This document shows, piece after piece, positions 3,534-63,857 of a stretch of 64,000 nucleotides of DNA. Under the pieces are notes generated by a model, which saw only the letters and a program-made list of their open reading frames with translations, did not search any database and was not told where the DNA came from. Position numbers and translations under genes: made by a program. Within the stretch, counting starts at the first letter, position 1, and each line of letters begins with the position of its first letter. The DNA is from Fibrobacter sp. (lineage in GTDB: Bacteria > Fibrobacterota > Fibrobacteria > Fibrobacterales > Fibrobacteraceae), in the NCBI GenBank assembly GCA_017412605.1, contig JAFPWY010000010.1, positions 248,001 through 312,000 of the forward strand, written 5' to 3'.

Positions 3534-4513
3534 TCCCTCACTCTTGTTGCTCTTATGAGCCCTTTCCTAAAATACGGTGGTTGCTGATTCTTATCCAAGG
3601 GAAATAACATATAACCATTCGAAAATTCAAATGTGTAGCCCAAATCTTTTAGTAGAGACGATATTGTTTCTGCGTGGCGAGCTCTATGATATGTGCAACA
3701 CGCAAGTTTGATTTTATTTTGAGATGTGAGAAACTCTTTGCTTTCTTGGATGACGGATTCTTCGGCTCCCTCAATATCCATTTTTATAAAGAACGACTCA
3801 TTGCTATATTTGTTAAAAAGGCTATTAAGTGTTATTGAGTTCTCGGAAATCTCGCCACTTAGAATTTTTGGAATGATTGTGACTTTATTTTTATACGGGG
3901 CAAATGTTGTCTGTAATGGTTTAAGCCAAATAGTATCAGCTTCCAGTAAGTATATATGTTTGGCTTTTTCAATAGAATCAAGTGCAAAAAGGGCTTCAGC
4001 ACAGCCTGCGTCTACAACAATGTCGTTTTGTTCCACTTGGAAGGAATCTGTTACATATTGGTGTGGTGCTTTTTCTGTATATCCTCCGCCAAGTAAGTTT
4101 TCTCGTTCGATATAATTGCAGTATACTTTACTGGCTAAAGCCGGAGACCAGTTGTCTGGAAAATACAAATGTTTATTTCTGTGGATAACAAAGGGAAGTT
4201 TTTGCTTATCATCATATCCTGAAATGGGTTTATCTATTCGTTTTATTTGGGGGTATGGAAATGGCTCCATAGCTTGTATGCTTTTCAAATAGCAAATCTC
4301 ACTGCGATATTGATTGGCTATATCTTTGTGCGTGTCAAAGTATATTTCAATGATTTCTTTTCTTACGGAAAGGATGTCTTCTTGTAGATTAGAAATAAGC
4401 TTGTTTTGGGCTTGAATTATTTTAATGCAGCTTTGTTCGTTGTTGTATTTGAACATTGTGCGTAGATTTTTGAGAAAATTACATAATGCAATAGGAATAT
4501 CTGAAAAAATCAT
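3530..4513 (-). CDS. FkbM-family methyltransferase
   Basis: 327 residues. The C-terminal half holds the FkbM methyltransferase pattern: DIVVDAGCAEALFAL (SAM-binding loop), YLLEAD, and FFIKMDIEGAEESVIQ, the most diagnostic motif of this family. The first roughly 100 residues are helical and of unknown function. FkbM enzymes in glycan clusters O-methylate sugars. It overlaps the ABC ATPase gene upstream by 4 bases and the AbiC-like gene downstream by 4 bases, which supports the chosen start and a tightly coupled operon. Base composition is AT-rich like its downstream neighbours. Confidence 0.85.
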   Translation of the reverse strand: MIFSDIPIALCNFLKNLRTMFKYNNEQSCIKIIQAQNKLISNLQEDILSVRKEIIEIYFDTHKDIANQYRSEICYLKSIQAMEPFPYPQIKRIDKPISGYDDKQKLPFVIHRNKHLYFPDNWSPALASKVYCNYIERENLLGGGYTEKAPHQYVTDSFQVEQNDIVVDAGCAEALFALDSIEKAKHIYLLEADTIWLKPLQTTFAPYKNKVTIIPKILSGEISENSITLNSLFNKYSNESFFIKMDIEGAEESVIQESKEFLTSQNKIKLACCTYHRARHAETISSLLKDLGYTFEFSNGYMLFPLDKNQQPPYFRKGLIRATRVRE

Positions 4514-5799
4514 TGCTCAATGACCTCGGTTTTGGAGTTAAACATGATTTTCCCCCATACACTATTCCATTGAGATACAGAAATGCTATCACATAGTGTG
4601 GGTTTGGTGATTTTAAATGATAGTATCTTGGATATGATATCAAAATCTGTTTGACAGGTTTGGTAGTTGCCTGTTCCGATAGAAAAGGAAACTTCATAAT
4701 TTCCCATTGCTAATCGGCTGTTTTGTAAAATTAATCTTATTTTTCTATTTTCCTTTTTTTGAATGGAAAAAGTTTCGGTATTTGAAATACTTCCTATTGG
4801 AGTGCCGTCTATAGAAAATATTGTCAGGTTAATTCGGCAGTTTTCTATGGTTTTATTTGCGTAAACACTAAAAATAAAAACAATCTCTTCATCAGTTGCA
4901 AATTCGTTGCAATTTTTTTCGAATTTAACGGATAAGAATTGAACTTCTTTTGCCGGATTAATATGATTTATATCGCAAATTTGTTTTTCACAAACATTGT
5001 TTTCTGATTTGCTATTGACATAATAATCTACAGCATCTTCCACACCGCCATCAAACGCTACTTGCCCCTGATTAAGCACAATTCCGCGCTTACACAGATT
5101 CTTCACCGCGCCCATATTATGGCTCACGAACAGCACGGTCCTACCTTCTCCGCGGCTCACGTCCTGCATCTTGCCGATGGCTTTTTTCTGGAATTCGGCG
5201 TCGCCTACGGCCAGCACTTCATCTACCACCAATATTTCGGGTTCGAGGTGCGCGGCGATGGCGAACCCGAGGCGAACGGTCATGCCGCTGCTGTAGCGTT
5301 TCACGGGGGTGTCCAGGTAGCGTTCGCAGCCGCTGAAGTCCACGATTTCGTCAAGCTTGCGGGTAATCTCGGCGCGGCTCATGCCCATGATGGCGCCGTT
5401 CATGTAGATGTTCTCGCGGCCGGTCATCTCCGGGTGGAATCCGGTGCCCACTTCGAGGAGGCTCGCGATGCGGCCCCGTGCGCGGATGGTGCCGGTGGTG
5501 GGGGCGGTAACGCGGCTCAGCAACTTGAGGAGGGTGCTCTTGCCGGCGCCGTTCCTGCCGATGATGCCAACGACGTCGCCCTGTTCCACCTTGAAGTTGA
5601 TGTCCTTCAGAGCCCACACGTATTCGCTGTCGCCCTTGTGCGCGCGGTCGTTCACCTCACCCACCTTGAGATAGGGGTCTTCGCGGCGCAGCACCTTGGT
5701 CTGCCAGAACCTGTTCAGGTCGTGGCTGAGCGTCCCAGTGCTCACTAGCCCCAGGCGGTACTGCTTGCTGATATTTTCAAACTCAATGGCAGACGACAT
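4510..5799 (-). CDS. Wzt-like polysaccharide ABC transporter ATP-binding protein
   Basis: 429 residues. Residues about 1-260 form an ABC ATPase: Walker A GRNGAGKSTLLK, a TGREN segment, the signature RYSSGMTVRLGFA, Walker B EILVVDEVLAVGD and the switch His in FVSHN. Residues about 275-429 form an added beta-rich domain like the Wzt C-terminal domain that binds the chain end of an O-antigen. It would drive export of the finished glycan across the inner membrane. No permease partner (Wzm) is visible next to it. The DNA encoding the ATPase is GC-rich, but the C-terminal domain (below about 5040) is AT-rich like the following operon, suggesting a recombination junction. Confidence 0.9.
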   Translation of the reverse strand: MSSAIEFENISKQYRLGLVSTGTLSHDLNRFWQTKVLRREDPYLKVGEVNDRAHKGDSEYVWALKDINFKVEQGDVVGIIGRNGAGKSTLLKLLSRVTAPTTGTIRARGRIASLLEVGTGFHPEMTGRENIYMNGAIMGMSRAEITRKLDEIVDFSGCERYLDTPVKRYSSGMTVRLGFAIAAHLEPEILVVDEVLAVGDAEFQKKAIGKMQDVSRGEGRTVLFVSHNMGAVKNLCKRGIVLNQGQVAFDGGVEDAVDYYVNSKSENNVCEKQICDINHINPAKEVQFLSVKFEKNCNEFATDEEIVFIFSVYANKTIENCRINLTIFSIDGTPIGSISNTETFSIQKKENRKIRLILQNSRLAMGNYEVSFSIGTGNYQTCQTDFDIISKILSFKITKPTLCDSISVSQWNSVWGKIMFNSKTEVIEQ

Positions 5800-7306: not shown

Positions 7307-7687
7307 TCATAGCGTTTGTGGGATTTCGTCGAGCTTGCGAGTGATTTCGCCACGGCTCATGCCCATGATGGCGCCGTTACGCCCGATGATTCCCACGACG
7401 TCGCCCTGTTCCACCTTGAAAACCCGATGAGCGAGAGCCGCGGCCAAACTTGTTTGGCCATGGCCGAGCGATAAGGGTTTCTGCAAGTTGATGTCCTTGA
7501 GGGCCCACACGTAGTCGCTGTTGCCTTTGTGCGCACGGTCGTTCGTTTCGCCCACCTTGAGGTAGGGGTCTTCGCGGCGCAGCACCTTGGTCTGCCAGAA
7601 CCTGTTCAGGTCGTGGCTGAGCGTCCCGGTGCTCACTAGCCCCAGGCGGTACTGCTTGCTGATATTTTCGAATTCAATGGCGGTCAT
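7307..7687 (-). pseudogene. Truncated, rearranged copy of the Wzt-like ABC ATPase 5' end
   Basis: The first part is nearly identical to the start of the intact gene at 5799, including the AIEFENISKQYRLGLVSTGT segment, and the AATATAGATATTA stretch just upstream is also shared. Two lesions follow. A 22-residue insert (66 bp) derives from a palindromic repeat placed in frame after ALKDIN. Then 51 codons are missing, including the GKST of Walker A and what follows, with the join at GGCGCCGTT (7370-7378); the intact gene has this 9-mer twice (5392-5400 and 5545-5553). Similarity ends at KLDEI, before the ABC signature and Walker B. The product cannot be a working ATPase. Confidence 0.9.
7420..7485. 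repeat. REP-like palindromic repeat inserted in the ATPase fragment
   Basis: The element is bounded by AAAACCC and GGGTTTCTG, with an inner palindrome around GGCCAAACTTGTTTGGCC. Read on the minus strand it aligns with the element at 30683-30747: CAGAAACCC, CGCTCGG, GCCA, CAAG, TGGC and GGGTTTT recur in the same order. Comparison with the intact gene shows a clean 66-bp gain. Confidence 0.85.
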
Positions 7688-16369: not shown

Positions 16370-16436
16370 TGTACTCAAAAAAAATCTCAAAAATTTTGAA
16401 AAGGGTATTGACTTTGAGTCAAATTTTGAGTACATT
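16370..16436 (+). promoter_or_regulatory. Promoter and inverted repeat of module A
   Basis: TTGACT (16408-16413), a 17-base spacer and TACATT (16431-16436) form a near-ideal promoter; the ATG at 16443 is only 6 bases after the -10 box, so the transcript should be leaderless. An 11-bp perfect inverted repeat, TGTACTCAAAA (16370-16380) and TTTTGAGTACA (16424-16434), brackets it, the right arm covering the -10 box. This suggests an operator. Confidence 0.65.
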
Positions 16437-16442
16437 TAGGAC

Positions 16443-17270
16443 ATGGACAAGATTATTGACATATTTCAATTCACAAGTTTCCGCAAGTACCTGGACGAAT
16501 ACCAGGCGGCTCGCGTGCAGACAGACCCTGATTTTACTAGGGCTGGAGCGTGCGTGCTGCTCGGGCTCCCCAAGACTCGCAGTTACTATAACGACATTAT
16601 CAAAGGGAAAAAGCTTTCTACCCGCATGATTCCCAAGTTCGTAGAAGTGCTTGGCCTGAATAAAAAAGAAGCCAAGTATTTCGAGACCATGGTGAACATG
16701 GACCAGGCGAAGACCGCGACGGAACGGAACGCTTTTTTCGAGGAACTGCTGAAGCAGCATCCGGATTCCCACCGTATCTTGAACGAAGACGCCTACGAGT
16801 ATTACAACCACTGGTACAACAGCGTGCTGTTTACGGCGTTGGAAGTCGTGGATGTCTCGGACGACCTTGAACCTATCCAGAAACTGATTTTCCCGAAAGT
16901 TTCCGTGGGTACCCTGAAACGTTCCCTGGAATTGCTGGAACGCCTCGGCTTTGTGCGGAAGAACGAGAATGGGTTCTGGAAGAGTTGCCGCGACGCTGTG
17001 AGCAGCGGTGACTATAATAATAGCGATTTGGTGCGCCAGTACCAGTTGCAGAGCTTTGAACTTTCAAAGCAGGCCCTGCTTGCAAGTGACGGAAGGTCGT
17101 CGGATATGGCTACGTTCACTTTCAGCGTTTCCGATGATGCGTTCAAGGCGATTGCCAAGGAAATCCAGGGCCTGAAGGCCAGGGTGCGTAAGATTATTAT
17201 GCTCGACAAGAAGAAGGCGACTGGCGTTCATCAGTTGAATGTTCATTTATTCACAAATTTGAAAAAATAA
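16443..17270 (+). CDS. TIGR02147/DUF4423-family regulator-like protein (module A)
   Basis: 275 residues. The N-terminal part has an XRE-like helix-turn-helix pattern: ACVLLGLPKTRSYYNDIIKG then LSTRMIPKFVEVLGL and a YFETMV segment. The centre holds the YNHWYNSVLFTAL motif that aligns with YYESW-P-REL in the other three copies, followed by a winged-helix-like VSVGTLKRSLELLERLGFV. Family members are paralogous in Fibrobacter; function is unproven but DNA binding is likely. A lipoprotein gene follows after 18 bases. This copy is the most diverged of the four here. The promoter lies directly at the start codon. Confidence 0.85.
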   Translation: MDKIIDIFQFTSFRKYLDEYQAARVQTDPDFTRAGACVLLGLPKTRSYYNDIIKGKKLSTRMIPKFVEVLGLNKKEAKYFETMVNMDQAKTATERNAFFEELLKQHPDSHRILNEDAYEYYNHWYNSVLFTALEVVDVSDDLEPIQKLIFPKVSVGTLKRSLELLERLGFVRKNENGFWKSCRDAVSSGDYNNSDLVRQYQLQSFELSKQALLASDGRSSDMATFTFSVSDDAFKAIAKEIQGLKARVRKIIMLDKKKATGVHQLNVHLFTNLKK

Positions 17271-17288: not shown

Positions 17289-18332
17289 ATGTTTATTAAT
17301 AAGTTGACAAAAACGGGCCTTGCCTTTGCTTTGCTTGGTCTTGGAATGTTCGTTGGTTGTAGCGATGAAGGCTCCAGTACGGCATCGACGCTCAGCGAGA
17401 CGAATACGGGTAATCCGTCGGTTGCAAGTCTGGATACGGCCGATTTTGAAAAGAAATTCGGTGACGGAAAAAGTTCGTGCGTAATAGAAGCCCTTGCGAA
17501 AAAAACTTCCAAAGTTGAAGATGACGAGGAGGAAATCGAATATAAGGTGGATACGCTCACGACATTGGAAGGCTCGCAGGTTATAGGATGGGGTCAATTG
17601 GCATGTGGCGCTGATAACAACATCTATCTGTATGCGGATGTGAAGGGGCGTGTGGTTGATCCGAGCGGGAAACCGTTGGCTAACGCCAAGGTTTATACTG
17701 AAACATCTTGTTCTCCATACGTTGACGATTGCCAGTGGTTTACGACGGATGATGACGGATACTTTTATATGGAAAGTGTGAATTTCTTGACGTATGAAGA
17801 GGGCTTCCCGATTTATGCGGATTCTACTAAAGCAGCGCGTACAAAAGATGGCGAAGCGAAAATGGAACATATTCCCGTATTTAAAAACTCGCCGGCTCGC
17901 ATTATTTCGGATGACAAAAAGTTTGGCACCAATGAAAGCCTTCGCTTTGATGAAGCTTCTATGATTAAAGTGGATGGCCGTAATATTCTTGACGTAGGTA
18001 ATGTGACTCTGGAACCGGCCTTTTCTGTCAATGTGCCTTTGGATTCCATTTATTTTAGAGTCATAGAAGAGCATAATGACGATTGGGATGTTGTCGATGC
18101 TCCTGTGGAAAAGGCTCTGGAGAGAGGCGTGTATTTGAGCATTCACAGCATGGATTGCTATAACGTTAATAAGTGCTATACTTGGACTCCTGACATTAAA
18201 ATTTCGCTTGAGGATGTGGAACGCGGGTATATTACAGTCGATGCGCTTCCGGAAAATACTTATGATCTGATGTTGTATTGTAAGGACTGCGTTGCCGATA
18301 TATATCCCGATACCCTTGTTGTAGAACGCTAG
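17289..18332 (+). CDS. Lipoprotein with carboxypeptidase-regulatory-like domain (module A)
   Basis: 347 residues. The signal peptide ends in a lipobox (GMFVGC, then SDEGSS). Residues about 117-165 look like a carboxypeptidase-regulatory/CarboxypepD-type beta sandwich: VKGRVVDPSGKPLANAKVY then FTTDDDGYFYMESV. The remainder is beta-rich with several Cys. A ribosome binding site AGGAGG lies about 8 bases before the ATG. It follows the TIGR02147 gene closely, so it is probably the regulated partner. It resembles the lipoproteins of the other modules in position more than in sequence. Confidence 0.78.
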   Translation: MFINKLTKTGLAFALLGLGMFVGCSDEGSSTASTLSETNTGNPSVASLDTADFEKKFGDGKSSCVIEALAKKTSKVEDDEEEIEYKVDTLTTLEGSQVIGWGQLACGADNNIYLYADVKGRVVDPSGKPLANAKVYTETSCSPYVDDCQWFTTDDDGYFYMESVNFLTYEEGFPIYADSTKAARTKDGEAKMEHIPVFKNSPARIISDDKKFGTNESLRFDEASMIKVDGRNILDVGNVTLEPAFSVNVPLDSIYFRVIEEHNDDWDVVDAPVEKALERGVYLSIHSMDCYNVNKCYTWTPDIKISLEDVERGYITVDALPENTYDLMLYCKDCVADIYPDTLVVER

Positions 18333-37963: not shown

Positions 37964-38076
37964 TGTATAATGATTTTTTGAATTTTTGAAATTATACGTA
38001 AAATTATACAATTTGAATAGAAAAACGCAATTTTTGTATAAAAAATGATTCCATGCGGCTAGGCATGAAATATATT
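37964..38076 (+). promoter_or_regulatory. Promoter and repeat sites of module D
   Basis: TATATT at 38071-38076 sits 6 bases before the ATG at 38083. TGTATAA occurs at 37964-37970 and again at 38035-38041 (71 bases apart), with inverted copies ATTATAC at 37991-37997 and 38003-38009 between. CATGC and GCATG flank GGCTAG at 38052-38067 just before the -10 box. No convincing -35 box is seen, which fits activator dependence. Confidence 0.55.
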
Positions 38077-38082
38077 TAGGGT

Positions 38083-38925
38083 ATGATGAAATCCGTAATT
38101 GAATATGAAGACTATCGTTTGTTTATGAACGACTATTACCGGTGGAAAAAGCAGACTTCCGCTTTTTCCTGGCGTGATTTTACTAAGAAGGGCGGTTTCA
38201 CTTCGCCTAACCATATGAAGTTGGTGTGCGAAGGCAAGAGCGGCCTTTCTAAAACCGGGGTTGAACGTGCCGCCGACGCCATGGACCTTGTGGGGGCCGA
38301 ACGCGAGTATTTTCGACAGTTGGTGAAGTTTGGTCAAGCCAAAAAGGATGCCGACAAAAAGGCTGCCTATACCGAAATGAAGGAAATCGCGTGTGCTCGC
38401 AAAGTCCGTGTTCTGGAAGGCGAATCGATGTCTTTCTACGAGTCATGGAAATTCCCGGTACTTCGCGAACTGGCCCCCATGATGCCGGGCGCAAAACCGC
38501 TCGATATCGCCAGGGCTTGCGGTAATGCTTTTTCGGCAGAAGAGGTTCGCAATGCGCTTGCTTTCCTGACACGGGCGAAATTCCTTAAAAAGACGGCCGA
38601 CGATGTGTATGAACAGGTGAATCGTTCGTTACGGATGTCTGTTGCTGCCATGCCGATGCTTGTCCGCGAGATGCACAAGGAAATGGCCGGCTTCGCAAAG
38701 GACGCTGTTGAAAAGTACCCTGTAGATGAACGCAACTTTACGGGTGTCACTATGGGCATAGATGACGAAGACTATGCCGAGATCTTGAAAGAATTGGAAA
38801 AATGTCGCAAGAGAATCATCTCTATTGCGAGTGCCAAAAAAGGCGGCAATCGCGTGTATCGCTTGAATATGCAGCTATTCCCGCTTACAGATAAAGTTCA
38901 AAAACATGAATCCTCATTAAAGTAA
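38083..38925 (+). CDS. TIGR02147/DUF4423-family regulator-like protein (module D)
   Basis: 280 residues. It opens with the YEDYRLFMNDYYRWKKQ segment, then an HTH-like FSWRDFTKKGGFTSPNHMKL, CEGKSGLSKTGVERAADAM and AEREYFRQLVKFGQAKKDADKKAAY. The conserved FYESWKFPVLRELAPMMPGA motif follows, then a winged-helix-like FSAEEVRNALAFLTRAKFLKK. The C-terminus contains the YRLNMQLFPLT motif shared with copies B and C. A lipoprotein gene follows 11 bases later, its AAGGAG overlapping this stop. DNA binding is inferred from the fold; the target is probably its own upstream repeats. Confidence 0.87.
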   Translation: MMKSVIEYEDYRLFMNDYYRWKKQTSAFSWRDFTKKGGFTSPNHMKLVCEGKSGLSKTGVERAADAMDLVGAEREYFRQLVKFGQAKKDADKKAAYTEMKEIACARKVRVLEGESMSFYESWKFPVLRELAPMMPGAKPLDIARACGNAFSAEEVRNALAFLTRAKFLKKTADDVYEQVNRSLRMSVAAMPMLVREMHKEMAGFAKDAVEKYPVDERNFTGVTMGIDDEDYAEILKELEKCRKRIISIASAKKGGNRVYRLNMQLFPLTDKVQKHESSLK

Positions 38926-50766: not shown

Positions 50767-50857
50767 ATTGTATCCTTTTTGGTGTTTGGTGTACTTGTCT
50801 TCAATGTAGATTATTTTTCGCTCCAAAAAGTAGTGCTTGGCTCCAAATAATACGAAG

Positions 50858-50974
50858 TGTATAATTTAGAGTTTTAAACTGAAAAAATGTTACTAAAAAG
50901 TGTTGATTTTTGATAAAAATCTTGATTTTTGTATAATTTAGATATTGACTGTCGGTGCCCGGAGAATCTATTTT
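50858..50974 (+). promoter_or_regulatory. Promoter and direct repeat of module B
   Basis: TGTATAATTTAGA occurs at 50858-50870 and 50930-50942, 72 bases apart. TTGACT (50945-50950), an 18-base spacer and TATTTT (50969-50974) form the promoter. The ATG at 50981 is 6 bases after the -10 box, so the transcript should be leaderless. The near repeat abuts the -35 box. Confidence 0.65.
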
Positions 50975-50980
50975 ATAGAC

Positions 50981-51814
50981 ATGAAACCGATACTCGAATA
51001 CAAAGACTACCACCTTTTCATGCAGGACTATTACGATTATCGTAAAAGTCACGGGGCGTTCTCCTGGCGCGAATTCTGCAAGCTTGCCGGATTCAGTTCG
51101 CCGAACTTCCTGAAGCTTGTATGTATGGGTCAGAGCAACCTGAGCATGGTCAAGGTTGAACCGGTCGCGAAGGCGATGGGGCTCGTCGCATACGAGGGCG
51201 AATATTTCAGGCAGCTCGTCATCTTCGGGAATGCCGAGAAGGATTCCGTCAAGAAGGCCGCCCTGCTCGAGATGGAGCGGATTGCGCGGGAACACAAGGC
51301 CCGCGTCGTCGACAGCGATACCTTCCAGTATTACGAATCGTGGAAGTACCCGGTCATTCGCGAACTTGCCCCGATGATGCCTGGCGCACAGCCCCGCAAG
51401 CTCGCTGACGAATGCAAGGAATATGTCTCCGCCGAGGAAGTCCGCGACATTCTCGCCTTTTTGGTGAAAGCGGGTTTCTTGAAGAAGAAAGGCGAGAAAG
51501 TCTATGCGCAAACCGAGAAGTCCGTTACCGGTTCGCCGGAAGCGCTGCCCATTGCCATCCGTGCCATGCACAAGGAGATGGGCAATATGGCTGTGCGAGC
51601 GGTAGACCGCTACAAGGCGAGCGAGCGTTACTTCACGGGCATGACCATTGGCGTGAACGAGGCGAACTACTCGCGCATTGTCGCCGAAATCGACTCCTGC
51701 GCTAGGAAAATTGCTGCCATCGCCAATGAAACGGAGAATTTAAACCAGGTCTACGGACTCAATTTCCAACTTTTCCCATTTACAAATAAGATTGAAGGAG
51801 GAAGCAATGCTTAA
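50981..51814 (+). CDS. TIGR02147/DUF4423-family regulator-like protein (module B)
   Basis: 277 residues from the ATG at 50981; 12 codons upstream the frame is still open but would include the promoter. It begins YKDYHLFMQDYYDYRKS, then HTH-like FSWREFCKLAGFSSPNFLKL, LSMVKVEPVAKAMGL and YFRQLVIFGNAEKDSVKKAAL. The YYESWKYPVIRELAPMMPGA motif and the winged-helix-like VSAEEVRDILAFLVKAGFLKK follow. The DNA for the central part is nearly identical to that of module C, indicating recent duplication or gene conversion. The lipoprotein start overlaps its end by 8 bases. Confidence 0.88.
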   Translation: MKPILEYKDYHLFMQDYYDYRKSHGAFSWREFCKLAGFSSPNFLKLVCMGQSNLSMVKVEPVAKAMGLVAYEGEYFRQLVIFGNAEKDSVKKAALLEMERIAREHKARVVDSDTFQYYESWKYPVIRELAPMMPGAQPRKLADECKEYVSAEEVRDILAFLVKAGFLKKKGEKVYAQTEKSVTGSPEALPIAIRAMHKEMGNMAVRAVDRYKASERYFTGMTIGVNEANYSRIVAEIDSCARKIAAIANETENLNQVYGLNFQLFPFTNKIEGGSNA

Positions 51815-53150
51815 CCTTAAACAGATCTTTTATATCGCTTTTGCCCTTTGTGTGCTGGCCGCTTGCTCCTCGGACGATTCCTCTGTGGCCGGGACCACGA
51901 CGATCCCGAATGCGAGTGCCGAAGTCACCAGTTCCTCGGACAAGGGGAGCAGTACTTCCGGTGATGAGATAACGAATTCTTCGGATGATGTTGTTGAGAG
52001 TTCTTCTGGCAACGAAGTTGTCGGCAGTTCCTCGTCCAAAGGCGATGATGAACTTCAGAGCATTATTTTCTCCACGGAGGCGACATCGAAAAAACCGCTC
52101 CAGCGAGGCGAAGTCTCTGTCTATGCTGCAGAAAATGGTGCCGAAGCGTCGTGTTCTGTAGGCCAAAAGGTTTATACGTTGAGATTCATTATAAATGAAG
52201 ATCGTTCGATGCAAAAAATGCTGTACTTGGATAATTTCGGCAGTGATTGCGATAGCATTTTCGATTTATTCAAACGTTCATGCGTGCGTGGCGTCTGGAG
52301 TGTTGCCTCAGGAGCGGCTTGTAGTGGAAATGGTCGATTGAAAGCTTCTTGCTATATAAACGAAATTGATTCTTTGAGTATGTGTATTACGCCGGGGTGC
52401 TCTTCGGTAAACTCGAATTTTGCGTTTGATTTCGATGCAATTGTCGTTGATTTTGTGCAGGAATCGGACAGCATTTGTAGTGATATTCCTGTAGGCTCGG
52501 GAACGGTGGATTCTTTGGATAATCGCCTCGAGTTGCCTTCGGATTCTGTTGTGGGGGTCGATACTGCAGCAAAACGTTTATTTATTATAAAACCGAATGT
52601 TGATCCTGTGGCAATTTCAGAGAGCGAACAGGCTTTTATGGATAGTCTGGCGTGGTCGTACCGCTCAAAAAGTAGAAGAGATGAATATACTGGCGAAGCA
52701 ATCAGGGTACATGACTATGCACAATACGAATGGACGACGCCAAAAGTGGATTATTTTGTTGAAGACTCGTCATCCCTTAATCGTTGCAATGTGGATTTGT
52801 ATAGTGAAGAACGTGGTTTGGTGCGCTATTTTGATATCTTCACGACGCCCATGTTTGATGGCGAAGCGAATCTTGAATCAACGATTCTTTATAAGGACTC
52901 CATAATCGTGTACTTGGCTTATGGCAAAATTGGCTCTTCTGCGCTTATGCTAAAGGATATATTCCAAGCGGAGTGCGAAGCGACGGGGGGAATATATGTC
53001 GATAATTTTGTGTTCCTGTCCGAAATTCCAATAAGGGTTGCCTTAACGTGTGCGGTCAAAAACTATTCTGATATGTCGTTTGAATCGATTGTTGGCCAAC
53101 AGCGCGACCTGTGCAAAAATGAATATCAATTTTTTGCGGAACCCGATTAG
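51807..53150 (+). CDS. Lipoprotein of module B
   Basis: 447 residues from the ATG at 51807, with AAGGAGG about 7 bases upstream. Lipobox VLAAC then SSDDSS. A Ser-rich linker (about 30-80) precedes the N-terminal module domain with FGSDCDSIFDLFKRSC and ASCYINEIDSLSMCI. A second part (about 250-447) is clearly related to the module C lipoprotein: FIIKPNV, DSIIVYLAYG, CAVKNYSD, ILGQQ/IVGQQ and a final Cys. Upstream and C-terminal portions differ. It is probably surface-exposed and co-expressed with the regulator. Confidence 0.82.
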   Translation: MLNLKQIFYIAFALCVLAACSSDDSSVAGTTTIPNASAEVTSSSDKGSSTSGDEITNSSDDVVESSSGNEVVGSSSSKGDDELQSIIFSTEATSKKPLQRGEVSVYAAENGAEASCSVGQKVYTLRFIINEDRSMQKMLYLDNFGSDCDSIFDLFKRSCVRGVWSVASGAACSGNGRLKASCYINEIDSLSMCITPGCSSVNSNFAFDFDAIVVDFVQESDSICSDIPVGSGTVDSLDNRLELPSDSVVGVDTAAKRLFIIKPNVDPVAISESEQAFMDSLAWSYRSKSRRDEYTGEAIRVHDYAQYEWTTPKVDYFVEDSSSLNRCNVDLYSEERGLVRYFDIFTTPMFDGEANLESTILYKDSIIVYLAYGKIGSSALMLKDIFQAECEATGGIYVDNFVFLSEIPIRVALTCAVKNYSDMSFESIVGQQRDLCKNEYQFFAEPD

Positions 53151-53185
53151 TATCTGAAAAAGGCTTCGGCTTAAAAAATCTAGAA

Positions 53186-53217
53186 AGTTCTCCGTAGAGT
53201 ACGGAGAGCTTTTTTTA
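53186..53217 (+). terminator. Terminator of module B
   Basis: AGTTCTCCGTA, GAG, TACGGAGAGCT followed by seven Ts. Nearly the same stem follows module C. Confidence 0.88.
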
Positions 53218-53231
53218 TTGCTTTTTGCTAA

Positions 53232-53359
53232 AATGATACAGGATGTATCATTCCGACAAAAATATTGAAAAAATATTTATTATTATGTTGATTTTCTTTA
53301 AAAAACTTGGTTTTCGTATCATTCCAAATGTTGCTTTAGGTGGTTCTTTAAGGTATATT
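53232..53359 (+). promoter_or_regulatory. Promoter, palindrome and direct repeat of module C
   Basis: AATGATAC, AGGAT, GTATCATT (53232-53252) is an 8+8 bp palindrome. GTATCATTCC recurs at 53245-53254 and 53316-53325, 71 bases apart. TTGCTT (53331-53336), 17 bases, TATATT (53354-53359) form the promoter, with the ATG 7 bases later. Confidence 0.65.
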
Positions 53360-53366
53360 TATAGAC

Positions 53367-54200
53367 ATGAAACCGATAACTGAATACAAAGACTACCGCA
53401 AGTACATGCAGGATTTCTACGACGAGCGCAAACGTACGGGCGCGTTCTCGTGGAGGGAATTCTCCAAGCTTGCCGGTTTTACTTCCCCAACGTATCTCAA
53501 GTTGGTATGCGAAGGGAAGAGCGGGCTGAGCAAGGTCAAGATGCTGCAGGTTTCCAAGGCGATGGGCCTCACCGGGTACGAAGAGGAATACTTTTCGCTC
53601 CTCGTTCTGCTGGCCAAGGCGACCAAGGATGCCGACAAAAAGGCAACGCTCCTCAAGATGGAGAAAATCGCCCTTGAGCACAAGGCCCGCGTCGTCGACA
53701 GCGATACCTTCCAGTATTACGAATCGTGGAAGTACTCGGTCATTCGCGAACTTGCCCCGATGATGCCGGGCGCCCAGCCCCGCAAACTCGCCGAGGAATG
53801 CAAGGAGTATGTCTCCGCCGAGGAAGTCCGCGACATCTTGGCGTTTCTCGTCAAGGCGGGTTTCCTCAAGAAGGACGGCGAAAAGGTCTTCTCGCAGACC
53901 GAGCGGACCGTCATTGGCTCGCCGGAAGCGCTGCCCATTGCCATCCGTGCCATGCACAAGGAGATGGGAAACATGGCCGTCCGTGCGGTGGACCGTTATG
54001 TGCAGGGCGAACGCTTTTTCAACGGTGTCACGCTCGGCGTAAACGAGGAAGCCTATGGCAGGATCGTCAACGAGATTACGGCTTGCTGCAAGCGTGTGGT
54101 CTCCATCGCCGACGAATACAAGAATTTAAACCAGGTTTATCGAATCAACTTTCAATTTTTCCCTTGCACAAATAAAGTAAAGGAGGAAAGCAATGCTTAA
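53367..54200 (+). CDS. TIGR02147/DUF4423-family regulator-like protein (module C)
   Basis: 277 residues. It begins YKDYRKYMQDFYDERKR, with HTH-like FSWREFSKLAGFTSPTYLKL, CEGKSGLSKVKMLQVSKAMGL and EEYFSLLVLLAKATKDADKKA. The segment HKARVVDSDTFQYYESWKY matches module B almost base for base, and the C-terminus YRINFQFFPCTNK corresponds to YGLNFQLFPFTNK in B. It is in tandem with module B and the same strand. Its first helix region and upstream repeats differ, so the two regulators may recognise different sites. The lipoprotein start overlaps its end by 8 bases, as in module B. Confidence 0.88.
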   Translation: MKPITEYKDYRKYMQDFYDERKRTGAFSWREFSKLAGFTSPTYLKLVCEGKSGLSKVKMLQVSKAMGLTGYEEEYFSLLVLLAKATKDADKKATLLKMEKIALEHKARVVDSDTFQYYESWKYSVIRELAPMMPGAQPRKLAEECKEYVSAEEVRDILAFLVKAGFLKKDGEKVFSQTERTVIGSPEALPIAIRAMHKEMGNMAVRAVDRYVQGERFFNGVTLGVNEEAYGRIVNEITACCKRVVSIADEYKNLNQVYRINFQFFPCTNKVKEESNA

Positions 54201-55653
54201 CAAGAAATTACTCACAGTCGGTTGTGCTGCCGGAAGCATGGCCTTGTTCTCCCTTATCGCCTGTTCTACCGATGCCGACAGTAATAAACTGACCGGTGCG
54301 ACAATCGATCCGGACGCCATTGCGCAGAATTTCAGTTCGTCGAGTCATTCTGGGTCGAGCGACGCGAACAACGCAAATTTTAATTTTCCTGAAATTGCGT
54401 TCAAGACGGCGGCTACATCGATCGTTGCACTGGACGGCGGCGAACTGAAAACGTTCGAAGCAGAAAACGGAGCCTCGGCAGAGTGTACGGGCGATGAAAA
54501 GTCGTATATTTCCAAGATCCAAATAGATGCTGATGGTGTCGTCAAGAATTCGCTGGAGTTAAAGAACTTTGGTAGCGGTTGTGATAGCGTACTTGCGAAA
54601 TTTATCACGTTATGTCACTCCAAGGCTGTTGTCTATAATGGAAAGGATGACAAGAAAACTTGCGATGAAAATGGCAACGTGAAGTCCTATTGCTATGACG
54701 ACAGGGCCGTTCCCATGGCTGTATGTACGGAAAATATGCCTGGTACTTGTACGTCAATTCCTGCGGATTCGACAGTCAATTTCGATGAAATCGTTAGGAA
54801 CTTATCAACGTTCTCGGAAGAACTATGCAATGATGTTTACAAAGACGCAAAAACAAAAACGGGGATATTCTCCACGCTGTCTTCGACATCACGCGATTTC
54901 TCCAGTTCGAGCGGCTTTGTTGAAACGTCACCCGATCCTGTTGACTCCGAATTTGAATGTGACTTGAAAACAGGGAAGAATTGCGATAAAGATGATTTTA
55001 AAATTGATACTTCGTATGTTCCCGTTGTTGATCCTCGTCAGGAACTGCCTTCATCGTCTGCAGAGGGTATCGATGCAAGTGCAAATCGTTCTTTTATCAT
55101 AAAGCCGAATGTCGAAACATTGAATGTCTCTGAAACGGAACGCATTGTATTGGATAGCCTTGCGAGGGCTTTTCCCTCAAAATCTGTAGTAAGTGAACAT
55201 AATGATCTGCGCGTCTATGATGCGGCTCGATACTATGCGTTCGGCTCTTCTTCAGAAAAATATTATGTAGGTCCAGTTTCAACTCGTTGCGATGTCGATG
55301 TGTTCAGGGACAAATTCGGACTAAAGCGTTCTGCAGACTGGTCGACGGATGCTTATGGAGGTTTGGGTATATCTTATCTTTACAATACGATTCTTCAGTA
55401 CTCTGATTCTGTAATTGTTTATTTAGTGGCAGGATCTATGGAGAGTGAAAGTGTGGAAACTTTGTTCAGAACGGAATGTGAATCGGTCGCGGGTTCGTTC
55501 TATAATTATCCTTCAAAGGGAATGGTGAATAATGTAGGGATGGCTTGTGCCGTCAAGAATTTCACGGGTGTCACGCTCGATGCTATTCTCGGCCAGCAGG
55601 CAAGCCTGTGTGAAAATATGTATGTAACCTTAGTCCACCCCGTTCAGGATTAA
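54193..55653 (+). CDS. Lipoprotein of module C
   Basis: 486 residues, with AAGGAGG about 6 bases before the ATG. Lipobox SLIAC then STDADS. The N-terminal module domain has GSGCDSVLAKFITLC and KSYCYDDRAVPMAVC. A Ser-rich linker region (about 230-250) is followed by a C-terminal part related to that of module B: FIIKPNV, DSVIVYLVAG, CAVKNFTGVTLDAILGQQ. The two have diverged more than their regulators. Probably a surface lipoprotein controlled by the upstream regulator. Confidence 0.82.
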   Translation: MLNKKLLTVGCAAGSMALFSLIACSTDADSNKLTGATIDPDAIAQNFSSSSHSGSSDANNANFNFPEIAFKTAATSIVALDGGELKTFEAENGASAECTGDEKSYISKIQIDADGVVKNSLELKNFGSGCDSVLAKFITLCHSKAVVYNGKDDKKTCDENGNVKSYCYDDRAVPMAVCTENMPGTCTSIPADSTVNFDEIVRNLSTFSEELCNDVYKDAKTKTGIFSTLSSTSRDFSSSSGFVETSPDPVDSEFECDLKTGKNCDKDDFKIDTSYVPVVDPRQELPSSSAEGIDASANRSFIIKPNVETLNVSETERIVLDSLARAFPSKSVVSEHNDLRVYDAARYYAFGSSSEKYYVGPVSTRCDVDVFRDKFGLKRSADWSTDAYGGLGISYLYNTILQYSDSVIVYLVAGSMESESVETLFRTECESVAGSFYNYPSKGMVNNVGMACAVKNFTGVTLDAILGQQASLCENMYVTLVHPVQD

Positions 55654-55681
55654 TCAAGTAAATCAAAAAAAATGCTAGATT

Positions 55682-55711
55682 GTTCTCCGTACAGTACGGA
55701 GAACTTTCTTT
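55682..55711 (+). terminator. Terminator of module C, directly before cysK
   Basis: GTTCTCCGTAC, AGTACGGAGAAC then TTTCTTT. Its T tract touches the cysK start codon at 55712, so it could also affect cysK translation or transcription. Confidence 0.8.
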
Positions 55712-60061: not shown

Positions 60062-61939
60062 TTACCGGCTGATCATCTTGCCGTTCAGTGTAGCGAGCCA
60101 GTGCTGATTGCGTGCTGCGCGCGGAATCTGGAACGACTGCGTTCCGGCGCGGATTTGCTTTTCGAAGAGAACGTTGCCGTTGAAGTCTACGAGCCTGAAC
60201 ATGCCACCTCTTTCGCTCTGGACGGTAATCCTGTTTTCGTTGAGAGTGTAGAAGTTCTGTTTTCTTATTTCCTGATGGCCTATGATGGCGTCTCTCCCAG
60301 GATTTGAGCTGCTTGAAGATGATGAAAACCTTGAATGGCTTGACGGACCCGGACTGCTACTGGATGAACTCGGAGTAGTCGGCTTGTCATCGTCGTCGTT
60401 GTCTTTGTCGTAATAGCCCCAATCGTCGATGATGAGCGCTTCGGTTGCCAAGGGGGAGGCGGGCTCGCTAAAACTCATCTGCTGGTCTATCCATGCGAAT
60501 CTATCCTTGACATATTTGCGCAGATGCTCGATTTCGGCATCCCACGTGGGCTCGTTGTAGTAGTTCATCTTCATGCCCATGCAACCCATGCTCCAGCCGC
60601 CCATGTTCCAGCCGTTGTTGTTCCCGCCGTTGTTGTTCCCGCCATTATTGTTGCCGGATTCCATCGGGTCGGCGTCGCAGGTGCCGCTAGACTGGCCCAG
60701 GTTCGGCCAGCGTTCGAAATTGCGATTGGCCGCATTCTTGAGGACGGTCTTGAGTGAGTCTATGAAGTGGTCGATGTTCTTGGTGTGCCACACGCCACTG
60801 CGGAGCTCTGCCCAACGAGCCTTGTATTTTTGCTGGAAGGTGTTGTTGCTCCAGATGTTCTGGATCCACTTGGCGACAAACCATTCGTTCATGCCAAAAG
60901 CGAAGCCTCCGTCATTTGCACTCTGCGGAATACGCCAACCGTCGGCCTTTTCGCCCCCGACACGCTGGTAGGCGCCGAATGCCAAGTTGAAGTCCCACGG
61001 TGCACCGAGCTGGAGCTTGCCTCCCTTGCTGTCCTTGTCCTTGAACATGTAGAAACTGCAGATGTAGGCGTCGGTGTTGTTGGTGACATCTTCGTGGATG
61101 ATGTAGTCCGTTGCTGCTTCAATATCCAGAATGTCGAGGCAACCGTTGGTGGTGATGTCGCCTTGGTCGCATTTTTGCTCGATGGAGTTGAAGAAGTTTT
61201 GGATATACTGCTGCTGTTCCTTGGTGGTGTTTTCCTTTTTCGGAGAACGCATCACGACAGGGGAGCCGTCCTTGCTCTTGAAACCTTCCTTGTCTAGCCC
61301 CTGCGTAGAGTTGTTGTCCACCTTGTCGACGCTCAGCACGTAACCGCCGGTCACGTCGTCGCCGCTGATATCTTCGTCCTTGAGTTTCGCGATATGCACA
61401 CGGGCTTTAGCACGTTTGATTTTTTCAAGCAACAGGTACACGCCCTTGTATTGCCCGTTCAGGTAGAGTTCAAAAAATTTGAAACGGGAACTGTAGCGAC
61501 CCGTGCGCTGGTAGAGCCAGTAGGCGAGCGCATTGCGGATGAGCGTCTTGTCGACATACGGCCCGTGGAACACCCAGTCGGCGCTCTTGGGCATGCCTAA
61601 AACCTTGAGGCTCGTGTCGTGGCAGGCTGTGTCGGCGACGTTCGTGCAGGGGCGCGCCTTGAGTTCGATTCCGTAACCCTTTTTGGGGAAGTCAGCGGAT
61701 GTCTGCCCGCGGATCTTGATGCCGATGTTGTATTTTTCGCCCTTGGAACTGTCGGCAATGCTGTTCGTGCCTTTGTCCAGAATGCTCATGGTGGCGGGAA
61801 TCTTGTCGGCACCCTTCTGGAGCGCTTGCCCGTTTTGAGTGTTCACGATAACCAGTGGCAGATCATAAGACTGCGCAAAAACCGGAATCGCCATGGCTAG
61901 GACGATGCCATAGAAGAAAATTTTTGATTTGTAGAACAT
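60062..61939 (-). CDS. Secreted CotH-family protein, first of a tandem array
   Basis: 625 residues. Signal peptide ends near VFAQ (residue 22). The CotH-like region (about 60-400) has IKIRGQTSADFPKKGYGIEL, DWVFHGPYVDKTLIRNALAY, YKGVYLLLEKIKR, TGGYVLSVDK and APWDFNLAFG. A Gly/Asn-rich spacer lies at about 426-446 and a Ser-rich linker at about 526-550. The C-terminus (FNGNVLFEKQIRAGTQSFQI...LNGKMISR) resembles T9SS sorting tails. CotH kinases phosphorylate proteins in spore coats, but secreted bacterial members occur near polysaccharidases and their targets are unknown. AAGGAG precedes the ATG. Confidence 0.88.
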   Translation of the reverse strand: MFYKSKIFFYGIVLAMAIPVFAQSYDLPLVIVNTQNGQALQKGADKIPATMSILDKGTNSIADSSKGEKYNIGIKIRGQTSADFPKKGYGIELKARPCTNVADTACHDTSLKVLGMPKSADWVFHGPYVDKTLIRNALAYWLYQRTGRYSSRFKFFELYLNGQYKGVYLLLEKIKRAKARVHIAKLKDEDISGDDVTGGYVLSVDKVDNNSTQGLDKEGFKSKDGSPVVMRSPKKENTTKEQQQYIQNFFNSIEQKCDQGDITTNGCLDILDIEAATDYIIHEDVTNNTDAYICSFYMFKDKDSKGGKLQLGAPWDFNLAFGAYQRVGGEKADGWRIPQSANDGGFAFGMNEWFVAKWIQNIWSNNTFQQKYKARWAELRSGVWHTKNIDHFIDSLKTVLKNAANRNFERWPNLGQSSGTCDADPMESGNNNGGNNNGGNNNGWNMGGWSMGCMGMKMNYYNEPTWDAEIEHLRKYVKDRFAWIDQQMSFSEPASPLATEALIIDDWGYYDKDNDDDDKPTTPSSSSSSPGPSSHSRFSSSSSSSNPGRDAIIGHQEIRKQNFYTLNENRITVQSERGGMFRLVDFNGNVLFEKQIRAGTQSFQIPRAARNQHWLATLNGKMISR

Positions 61940-62084: not shown

Positions 62085-63857
62085 CTATCTGTTCAGCATC
62101 TTTCCGTTGAGGGTTGCTATCCAGTGCTTGTTCCTTGCCTTGGACGGAATCTTCAGCGTCGTGAGCCCGGCCTTGATGCGGGTCTTGTATAGAACTGAGC
62201 CGTTCAAATCCATAAGGGCGAAGGAGCCTCCAACGCTTGTGTGGACTTCGAGATGGTCGCCATTTATGGCAAAGAAATTCGTCGGGGAGAGCCTGCTGAA
62301 ATCATCGGAATGGATATGCAGCCAATTTGTATCGCCCATTTCTGCTCGCCAATCGGGTTCATGGATGATGGGCTCGAATACTACAGGGCTTGCAGGTTCC
62401 GTAAAACCGAGCTGCTCGTCCATCCATTTCATTTTTTCTTTCATTTTCGTGCGGACGTGTTCGAATTCGCCGTCCCAGGTGTCTGCATTGTATCCGCCCA
62501 TAGCCATTCTCATTTCTGCTAAATAAGAGGGTCTATTGCAGTATTTTATGGGTTCCGGGTCATCTTCATAGGTTCCGGTAGCTTCTCCTAGATTTGGCCA
62601 GCGTTTGAAGTTTCTGTCGGCGGCGCTTTTGAGGTATGTCTTCATGGAATCCAGGTAGGCGTCTATGGTCTTGGTGTGCCAAACTCCGCTACGGAGCTCC
62701 GCCCACCGCTTTGACACTTCAATCTGGAAAATGCTGTCCTTCCACATCTCAAAAACCCAATTTGACTGATTCCAACTTAAACTAGAAGCATAGATTGCGT
62801 AGAGCTTTTCGATTATCCAGATGTTGTCGTATTGGTATTGGGAACTTTTGGTGGAGTCGGTTCCATTTTTTTCATCGTTGCTACTTTCTGGTGTATGCCA
62901 ATTTTTGAAGGCTAGAGAGAAACCCCATGGTGGACCGAGTGTTATTTTGCCAGTGGTCTTATTGCCTTGATCGTTCGTTTTATCCTTGGGTTTGTACATG
63001 AAGAAATTAGTTATATAGGTATCTATATTTTGGGTGAGTTCTTCAAGTAATATGTAATCTACTGCGGATGCTACATCCACGTAGTTTTCGTATCCGCTCC
63101 CGTTTTTGCCGTCCTTGTATAGAGCTCCAAGTTCGTTCAAATAATTTTGTATGTATTCTTCCTGCTCTTTTGCCACTTTATCTTTTTTGGGATAGCGCAA
63201 GATGACTTTTGTTCCATCAGATGTCTTGAACCCTAATTCTTTGTTTCTGGGGCTCGGATCCTTGTAATCGAATGTCCAAATGTAGCCGCCGGTAAGGTCG
63301 TCGCCTTCGATGTCCGTTTCTTTAAGTTTGCTCACGTTGACGCGGTATTTGCCGCGCTTGATTCTTTCGATAAGCACATAGACACCGCGATAGACCCCGT
63401 TGATGTACAGATCGAAGTGCTTTGTGCGAGGGCTGTAACGGCCTGTTTGCCGAAAGAGCCAGTGGCCAAACGAGTTCCTTACCATGCTTTTATCGACATA
63501 AGGCCCGTGCAAGACCCAGTCGTCGGAGGGTGGGAGGCCTAGAAGGCTCGCATTTATGTCTTTGCCCGTCGAATCGTGGAATTCGATGGTATAGTTTAGC
63601 TTGGGGAAATTCGCCGAAAGTCCCCCGCGGACCTTGATGCCTATTTCGTATGGGGTGGCTTTGGAACTGTCGACTACGTTGTTTGTTTTCCCGTCTAGGA
63701 CTCTTATTGTAGCGGGCAGTTTTTCGGTAACCCTGTTGTCAAGGCATCGTTGTTTGGTATCAATAAATATAATGGGCGAATCGTATGTTTGTGCAAATAC
63801 CGGAATCACCATAGCTAAGATGAAGCCATAGAAAAAACTATTCAATTTGCAGAACAT
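62085..63857 (-). CDS. Secreted CotH-family protein, second of the array
   Basis: 590 residues from the ATG at 63855-63857, preceded by AAGGAG; 21 codons upstream are open but lack a ribosome binding site. Signal peptide ends at PVFAQ. CotH landmarks are VRGGLSANFPKLNYTIEF, DWVLHGPYVDKSMVRNSFGH, YRGVYVLIERIKRGKYRV, TGGYIWTFDY and GPPWGFSLAFKNW. The last (PWGF versus PWDF) differs at an Asp that may matter for metal binding. The Gly/Asn and Ser-rich spacers of the first copy are absent. The C-terminal tail ends in LNGKMLNR, nearly as in the third copy. Confidence 0.87.
   Translation of the reverse strand: MFCKLNSFFYGFILAMVIPVFAQTYDSPIIFIDTKQRCLDNRVTEKLPATIRVLDGKTNNVVDSSKATPYEIGIKVRGGLSANFPKLNYTIEFHDSTGKDINASLLGLPPSDDWVLHGPYVDKSMVRNSFGHWLFRQTGRYSPRTKHFDLYINGVYRGVYVLIERIKRGKYRVNVSKLKETDIEGDDLTGGYIWTFDYKDPSPRNKELGFKTSDGTKVILRYPKKDKVAKEQEEYIQNYLNELGALYKDGKNGSGYENYVDVASAVDYILLEELTQNIDTYITNFFMYKPKDKTNDQGNKTTGKITLGPPWGFSLAFKNWHTPESSNDEKNGTDSTKSSQYQYDNIWIIEKLYAIYASSLSWNQSNWVFEMWKDSIFQIEVSKRWAELRSGVWHTKTIDAYLDSMKTYLKSAADRNFKRWPNLGEATGTYEDDPEPIKYCNRPSYLAEMRMAMGGYNADTWDGEFEHVRTKMKEKMKWMDEQLGFTEPASPVVFEPIIHEPDWRAEMGDTNWLHIHSDDFSRLSPTNFFAINGDHLEVHTSVGGSFALMDLNGSVLYKTRIKAGLTTLKIPSKARNKHWIATLNGKMLNR

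Follow-up and report, generated by a model that had tools for sequence, protein, structure and literature searches.

Paired TIGR02147 regulator and lipoprotein genes in Fibrobacter: a predicted family of self-regulating two-gene units

The TIGR02147/DUF4423 protein family is listed without a function. In a stretch of 64,000 nucleotides from the genome of Fibrobacter sp., a fibre-digesting gut bacterium (contig 10, positions 248001-312000; hereafter the window), four genes of this family are each immediately followed by a lipoprotein gene, forming the modules A, D, B, and C. It is very probable that such a module is an autonomous, autoregulated two-gene unit, in which the TIGR02147 protein acts on operators in its own promoter, where its binding is predicted. 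Self-regulation, a guess in the first-pass annotation of the window, is now strongly supported by sequence comparison: by private operators in individual promoters, by a code relating the recognition helix to the operator, and by the uniqueness of the operators across the genome. A literature search found no paper naming TIGR02147, and the single mention of DUF4423 concerns Bdellovibrio Bd3700, listed in a proteome table with a higher abundance in cells growing in prey (PMC12546842).

The four regulator and four lipoprotein open reading frames (ORFs) annotated earlier are present at their coordinates:

16443..17270, plus strand: module A TIGR02147 regulator, 275 amino acids (aa); TIGR02147 323 bits, DUF4423
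17289..18332, plus strand: module A lipoprotein, 347 aa; lipobox FVG-C, Shine-Dalgarno sequence AGGAGG; CarboxypepD_reg-like region below the Pfam cut-off
38083..38925, plus strand: module D TIGR02147 regulator, 280 aa; TIGR02147 289 bits
38937..40163, plus strand: module D lipoprotein, 408 aa; lipobox LVA-CSESEKVAGGTIEDQNA
50981..51814, plus strand: module B TIGR02147 regulator, 277 aa; TIGR02147 272 bits
51807..53150, plus strand: module B lipoprotein, 447 aa; lipobox LAA-CSSDDSSVAGTTTIPNA, Shine-Dalgarno sequence GAAGGAGG
53367..54200, plus strand: module C TIGR02147 regulator, 277 aa; TIGR02147 269 bits; used for the structure model and the code
54193..55653, plus strand: module C lipoprotein, 486 aa; a near-identical locus has a different C-terminal half, starting at about 54912

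The spacing reported for these pairs is exact, with gaps of 18 nt in A and 11 nt in D and 8-nt overlaps in B and C. The family assignment also holds, as the four regulators score 269-323 bits against TIGR02147 (Fsuc_second; cut-off 50), covering the 272-position model nearly completely, and 71.6-99.9 bits against PF14394 (DUF4423; gathering cut-off 30). The YYxSW-P-REL motif, ascribed to the regulators in general, does not extend to that of module A, which has YYNHWYNSVLFTA instead.

The pairing recurs throughout the genome of origin (3.53 Mb), in which a whole-genome search found 33 TIGR02147 genes. A lipoprotein gene comes next on the same strand in all 33 cases, at a gap of -14 to +36 nt. 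Starts of both genes were re-read ORF by ORF, the initial gene-caller table being short of seven regulators. Lipoproteins were called, by pattern and hydrophobicity rather than SignalP, as having a signal peptide with a lipobox cysteine; the lipobox rule was relaxed, its strict form having lost partners in which R, K, or Q lies close to the cysteine, and every one of the 33 partners qualifies. The genome-wide check on chance pairing leaves the claim of a paired paralogous family standing: in 717 kb of sampled background, a close lipoprotein follower on the same strand was found for 22 of 518 genes (4%), and 52 of these 518 genes encode lipoproteins by a similar rule. In a phylum-wide sample that includes single-copy genomes, 76 of 78 TIGR02147 genes have a lipoprotein partner. 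The family occurs in 141 of 151 sampled Fibrobacterota genomes, reaching dozens of copies per genome, and a narrower TIGR02147 profile, scanned over genome contigs, gave matches in Fibrobacterota only. These counts support a paralogous family of paired genes, both within the genome and across the phylum.

Individual loci of the family vary. Four regulator-lipoprotein pairs (paralogues 17, 12, 9, and 11) stand in tandem on contig C6 (locus L062, 145233-157200), with alternating types of signal peptide. Paralogue 29 (locus L071, contig C11, 317870-318577) lacks the first 34 model positions and is probably a decayed regulator; the 780-aa lipoprotein downstream of it is intact. Module D was found in only 10 of 41 genomes of the genus, and two of its orthologues (L208 and L209) each have one in-frame TAA within the aligned regulator stretch; no lipoprotein was found at L209.

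The promoters of the four modules contain repeated half-sites, which are the predicted operators, and further signals accompany modules B and C:

16371..16433, plus strand: module A operator, inverted half-sites GTACTCAA (16371-16378) and TTGAGTAC (16426-16433) around the -35 element; 18 orthologues
37965..38040, plus strand: module D half-sites, GTATAAT (37965-37971), tandem ATTATAC-N5-ATTATACA (37991-38010), and TTTTTGTATA (38031-38040); kept in D orthologues
50846..50866, plus strand: module B palindromic operator, AATAATAC-gaagt-GTATAATT
50931..50938, plus strand: module B second half-site GTATAATT, directly 5' of the -35 element, 72 bp past the right arm of the palindrome
50945..50974, plus strand: module B promoter, TTGACT-18-TATTTT, ending 6 nt 5' of the ATG; leaderless signature
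53182..53214, plus strand: terminator-like intrinsic hairpin past module B, 15-pair stem and T-run
53232..53252, plus strand: module C palindromic operator, AATGATAC-aggat-GTATCATT, conserved in orthologues; one of three such sites in the genome
53316..53323, plus strand: module C second half-site GTATCATT, directly 5' of the -35 element, 71 bp past the right arm of the palindrome
53331..53359, plus strand: module C promoter, TTGCTT-17-TATATT, ending 7 nt 5' of the ATG; leaderless signature
55682..55704, plus strand: terminator-like intrinsic hairpin past module C, 10-pair stem and T-run

Promoter alignment shows GTACTCAA and TTGAGTAC flanking the promoter in 18 of 18 orthologues of module A. 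The -35 element is TTGACT (16408-16413), and the right half-site overlaps the -10 element TACATT (16431-16436). A sister group of module A carries GTTCTCAA, together with TTGAGAAC in members retaining the second arm, and the spacer between half-sites measures 47, 36, or 25 bp, that is, it changes in steps of 11 bp, or one helical turn. The ATTATAC/GTATAAT half-sites of module D are likewise repeated and conserved in its orthologues. Alignment of promoters of the B and C type reveals a conserved palindrome and a second copy of its right arm 70-73 bp downstream, just before the -35 element. Where the palindrome arm differs between subgroups, the second half-site differs with it (10 distinct pairs, 73 of 80 positions; p 2e-4 by permutation). 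A scan for 7-mer inverted repeats returned mostly chance hits, while a scan for the 8-5-8 palindrome with its second half-site separated real from shuffled sequences, giving a score of at least 15 out of 16 in 5 of the 33 promoters of this genome and in 1 of 1320 shuffles.

Across the whole genome, the exact operator patterns searched are confined to TIGR02147 promoters. All three hits of the B/C pattern lie at such promoters (B, C, and paralogue 4), and the wider pattern TATNNNACN5GTNNNATA has three hits, all before paralogues 4, 15, and 19, against four chance hits for the reversed control. The operator of module A and the tandem operator of module D each occur once, in their own promoters.

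The operators also follow the sequence of the regulators. In the module C regulator, residues 39-47 (TSPTYLKLV) form the predicted recognition helix region, with residues 41, 42, and 46 as the specificity residues. Proline at residue 41 goes with A at base 3 of the half-site, and serine with T or G; at base 5, A or T accompanies asparagine at residue 42, and C accompanies threonine, serine, valine, or glycine; valine at residue 46 goes with G at base 4, and leucine with T. Over 55 promoters, among which those of close species are related, the concordance is 55/55 for residue 41 and base 3, 54/55 for residue 42 and base 5, and 54/55 for residue 46 and base 4; sites in this set were accepted at a score of at least 13 with half-sites 69-73 bp apart. 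On the regulator tree, each residue change sits on a branch that also has a base change: 4 of 4, 2 of 2, and 3 of 3 for residues 41, 42, and 46 (p 2e-7, 5e-4, and 2e-5).

The rules for residues 41 and 42, seen in 18 helix/site combinations, hold in ten further promoters. Among held-out paralogues of this genome, the predicted half-site GTATCA was found in 7 of 12 promoters, compared with 8 of 413 background promoters. Module D, with asparagine at residue 42, has four GTATA[AG] sites. In 30 further loci, obtained with paralogue 15 as the query, SSSS helices go with GTTGCAT, SSPS with GTAGCAT, and SSPN with GTAGTAT; two of these loci (L279 and L283) have weak sites that do not fit the code. The residue-46 rule is not independently held out, because it was noticed on these loci and then counted on all data.

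The predicted fold of the regulator is compatible with such a role. The AlphaFold2 model (pLDDT, predicted local distance difference test, 84; pTM, predicted template modelling score, 0.59) has an N-terminal helix-turn-helix, whose helices span residues 29-35 and 43-48, and resembles a winged helix over residues 121-184. In Foldseek searches, the N-terminal 60-80 residues matched the XRE-type regulators C.BclI, C.AhdI, and NHTF, with a lambda-repressor-like helix-turn-helix, at probabilities of 0.97-0.98 with E above 0.001, and the C-terminus matched winged helices of the MarR/MecI type at the domain level only, with no E below 0.001. An anti-phage defence system was considered and rejected, as none of eight proteins matched the PADLOC models.

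The regulator genes look leaderless. A -10-like hexamer 4-9 nt 5' of the ATG is present in 8% of background genes, in 52% of the paralogues of this genome, and in 90-100% of the orthologues of A, C, and D; a Shine-Dalgarno sequence was found in none of the A, C, and D regulator orthologues, as against a strong one in 77% of partner lipoproteins. Hairpins follow modules B and C, in a terminator scan whose total hairpin count is near the shuffled expectation. Because of the leaderless signature, the partner Shine-Dalgarno sequences, and these hairpins, each module appears to be transcribed on its own, as a two-gene mRNA in which the regulator has no leader.

The partner lipoproteins, probably located in the envelope and conceivably exposed on the surface, combine a common beginning with unrelated bodies. 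Within about 25 residues past the lipidated cysteine they have a common motif (profile consensus CSDDEDDVAGGGTETTNAIA, AGG-TETTNAIA). A profile trained solely on partners that do not come from the genus tells the 33 partners of this genome apart from 46 other lipoproteins, with a held-out area under the curve (AUC) of 0.955; a plain regular expression is weak, finding 14 of 33. The CDS(I/V)(F/L)-x2-F-x3-C pattern described earlier for lipoproteins D, B, and C is correct. The statement that the lipoprotein of module A differs needs qualification, since its orthologues bear the same kind of post-cysteine motif, for example CSSDDNVASSFSETNTGKP. One lipoprotein with a partner-type motif (CDDSESTVAGPGSETTPQIA; L088:17500-18792, at about 317500 on contig C1) has no adjacent TIGR02147 gene and is possibly an orphan partner.

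Among the 33 bodies, 9 contain a FISUMP domain (Fib_succ_major, TIGR02145) and 9 a carboxypeptidase-regulatory-like beta-sandwich; laminin-G, CBM4_9, pectate lyase, and beta-helix domains occur in single partners. TIGR02145 matches none of the four lipoproteins of the window, and their membership of FISUMP, which has been proposed as a cohesin analogue (PMC4704652), was rejected. In a proteome study, 40 of 49 quantified lipoproteins, some of them with carboxypeptidase-regulatory-like domains, were lower on cellulose (PMC6851124). Similar bodies tend to accompany similar regulators (median regulator identity 50% versus 32%). The AlphaFold2 model of lipoprotein C was poor (pLDDT 55) and was left out of the fold search.

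The variable part of the lipoprotein can apparently move as a cassette. Among loci whose regulators are 98% identical to that of module C, one has a lipoprotein with the C-terminal half of the window type and another, L170, has an unrelated half of the D type. DNA identity between window C and L170 is about 90% or more over the promoter, the regulator, and the N-terminal half, to about 54912; it is lost beyond this point and returns at 55671, 18 nt beyond the stop codon. Cassette exchange is suggested because near-identical flanks enclose an unrelated C-terminal half.

Taken as a mechanism, a module would comprise operators and promoter, regulator, lipoprotein, and terminator in one autonomous transcription unit. 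The TIGR02147 protein would be an autoregulator that binds DNA at specific sites and combines an XRE-type helix-turn-helix at the N-terminus with a winged-helix-like DUF4423 part at the C-terminus. The half-sites that it would bind in its promoter would face the same side of the DNA: in B and C the palindrome and a half-site about 7 helical turns away, in A two half-sites on either side of the promoter, 3-5 helical turns apart. The bound regulator, probably in a cooperative or looped complex, would determine how much of its own leaderless mRNA is made and how much of the co-transcribed lipoprotein, the latter being translated from its own strong ribosome site. Repression is likelier for module A because a half-site covers the -10 element. 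Either sign of regulation is possible for B, C, and D, and the half-site beside the -35 element of B and C fits activation as well as a repression loop.

Since many regulators appear to recognise a private predicted site in their own promoter, each unit appears self-controlling. Recognition helix and operator seem to have diverged jointly among paralogues, so many units may answer to themselves only. The lipoproteins would meanwhile have kept the lipid-proximal motif constant and diversified their distal domains. More speculative, and doubtful as a whole, is the idea of a phylum-defining, self-contained platform, whose evolvable three-residue/three-base code would allow dozens of envelope lipoprotein genes with cassette-swapped distal domains to be multiplied, insulated, and rewired in Fibrobacterota, and whose overlapping half-site classes would connect some of the modules in a display network with cross-regulation.

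Several observations weigh against self-regulation as a general rule. The strict scan calls operators of the B/C kind in only 8 of 33 paralogues, A and D having been added by alignment, and an operator scan of the distant subfamilies (paralogues 1-3 and 30-33) found none. Paralogue 20 (helix SSPTYLRLV, half-site GTGTCAT) violates the base-3 rule; it falls outside the 55-promoter set because its half-site spacing is 60 bp. Insulation is incomplete, the predicted half-site GTATCAT being common to several paralogues, so cross-talk between them is possible. Both unpaired genes of the phylum-wide sample (L122 and L142) come from one genome, G051. No Foldseek match to the regulator model reaches E 0.001, the high probabilities applying at the domain level only.

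Other explanations have been weighed against autoregulation. In RNPP peptide-sensing systems, pheromones derive from lipoprotein signal peptides. By analogy, the lipoprotein could be a sensor, and the regulator in the cytoplasm would read its state, such as failed export or the release of the signal peptide. The nearly obligate 1:1 pairing across the phylum and the conserved lipid-proximal motif on unrelated bodies speak for this reading; as a rival it is rather improbable, since the regulators have no TPR domain or known peptide pocket and the conserved motif sits past the cleavage site. It is compatible with autoregulation, to which it could supply the input. Quite unlikely is that the regulators mostly act elsewhere, on a global envelope or adhesion regulon, with the adjacent lipoprotein as one target or an accessory sensor. 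Many regulators do adjoin a gene that they also control, and the genome-wide searches covered exact patterns rather than mismatched sites, but those patterns were found at TIGR02147 promoters only. Little probability is also given to mutually exclusive display, an idea of the first-pass annotation, in which the regulators repress each other and one lipoprotein is shown at a time: the many paralogues and the half-site GTATCAT could permit cross-binding, yet distinct half-site classes favour insulation over general mutual repression. A phase-variable switch by promoter inversion or slipped-strand repeats, suggested by the inverted repeat around the module A promoter, is extremely improbable, its invertible form being rejected by the single promoter orientation in all 18 A orthologues, with a repeat spacing that shifts in operator-like 11-bp steps.

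Two further observations concern the window outside the modules. The N-terminal stretch of an ABC-transporter-like ATPase is present in two near-identical copies (4510-5799 and 7307-7687), as a partial duplication, and two similar secreted proteins (MFYKSKIFFYGIVLAMAIPVFAQ and MFCKLNSFFYGFILAMVIPVFAQ) are encoded on the minus strand (60062-61939 and 62085-63857).

Site-specific autoregulation would provide a likely function for a large family annotated merely as paralogous or as a DUF. The control of envelope and adhesion proteins in Fibrobacter is poorly known, and few regulators have been located near its cellulases (PMC3079729). The helix/operator code, moreover, constitutes a natural data set on the insulation of paralogous regulators and yields exact predictions.

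Among known systems, the Bacteroides capsule loci with UpxY/UpxZ also consist of many paralogous surface loci, each beginning with its own regulator. Unlike them, the TIGR02147 modules have no invertible promoter and no antiterminator, and the two are not homologous. The closest functional analogue appears to be the controller (C) proteins of type II restriction-modification systems (C.PvuII, C.AhdI, C.BclI), whose regulator mRNA is leaderless, whose C boxes lie upstream, and whose effector gene overlaps the regulator gene and has an obvious ribosome site (PMC2997769). Membership of the C proteins themselves was rejected: these are small proteins with a single helix-turn-helix domain, whereas the TIGR02147 regulators have about 275 (275-280) aa and a second, winged-helix DUF4423 domain. 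Their neighbour is an envelope lipoprotein rather than a restriction enzyme or methyltransferase, and they occur as dozens of paralogues per genome. The likeness lies in the arrangement. In both, the regulator is encoded first and has a leaderless signature; for the TIGR02147 regulators, an XRE-type helix-turn-helix and an operator upstream of their own promoter, as in the C proteins, are predicted. The lipoprotein genes of B and C overlap the regulator gene and have their own ribosome site, and the predicted N-terminal fold of the regulator resembles C.BclI and C.AhdI (Foldseek, E above 0.001).

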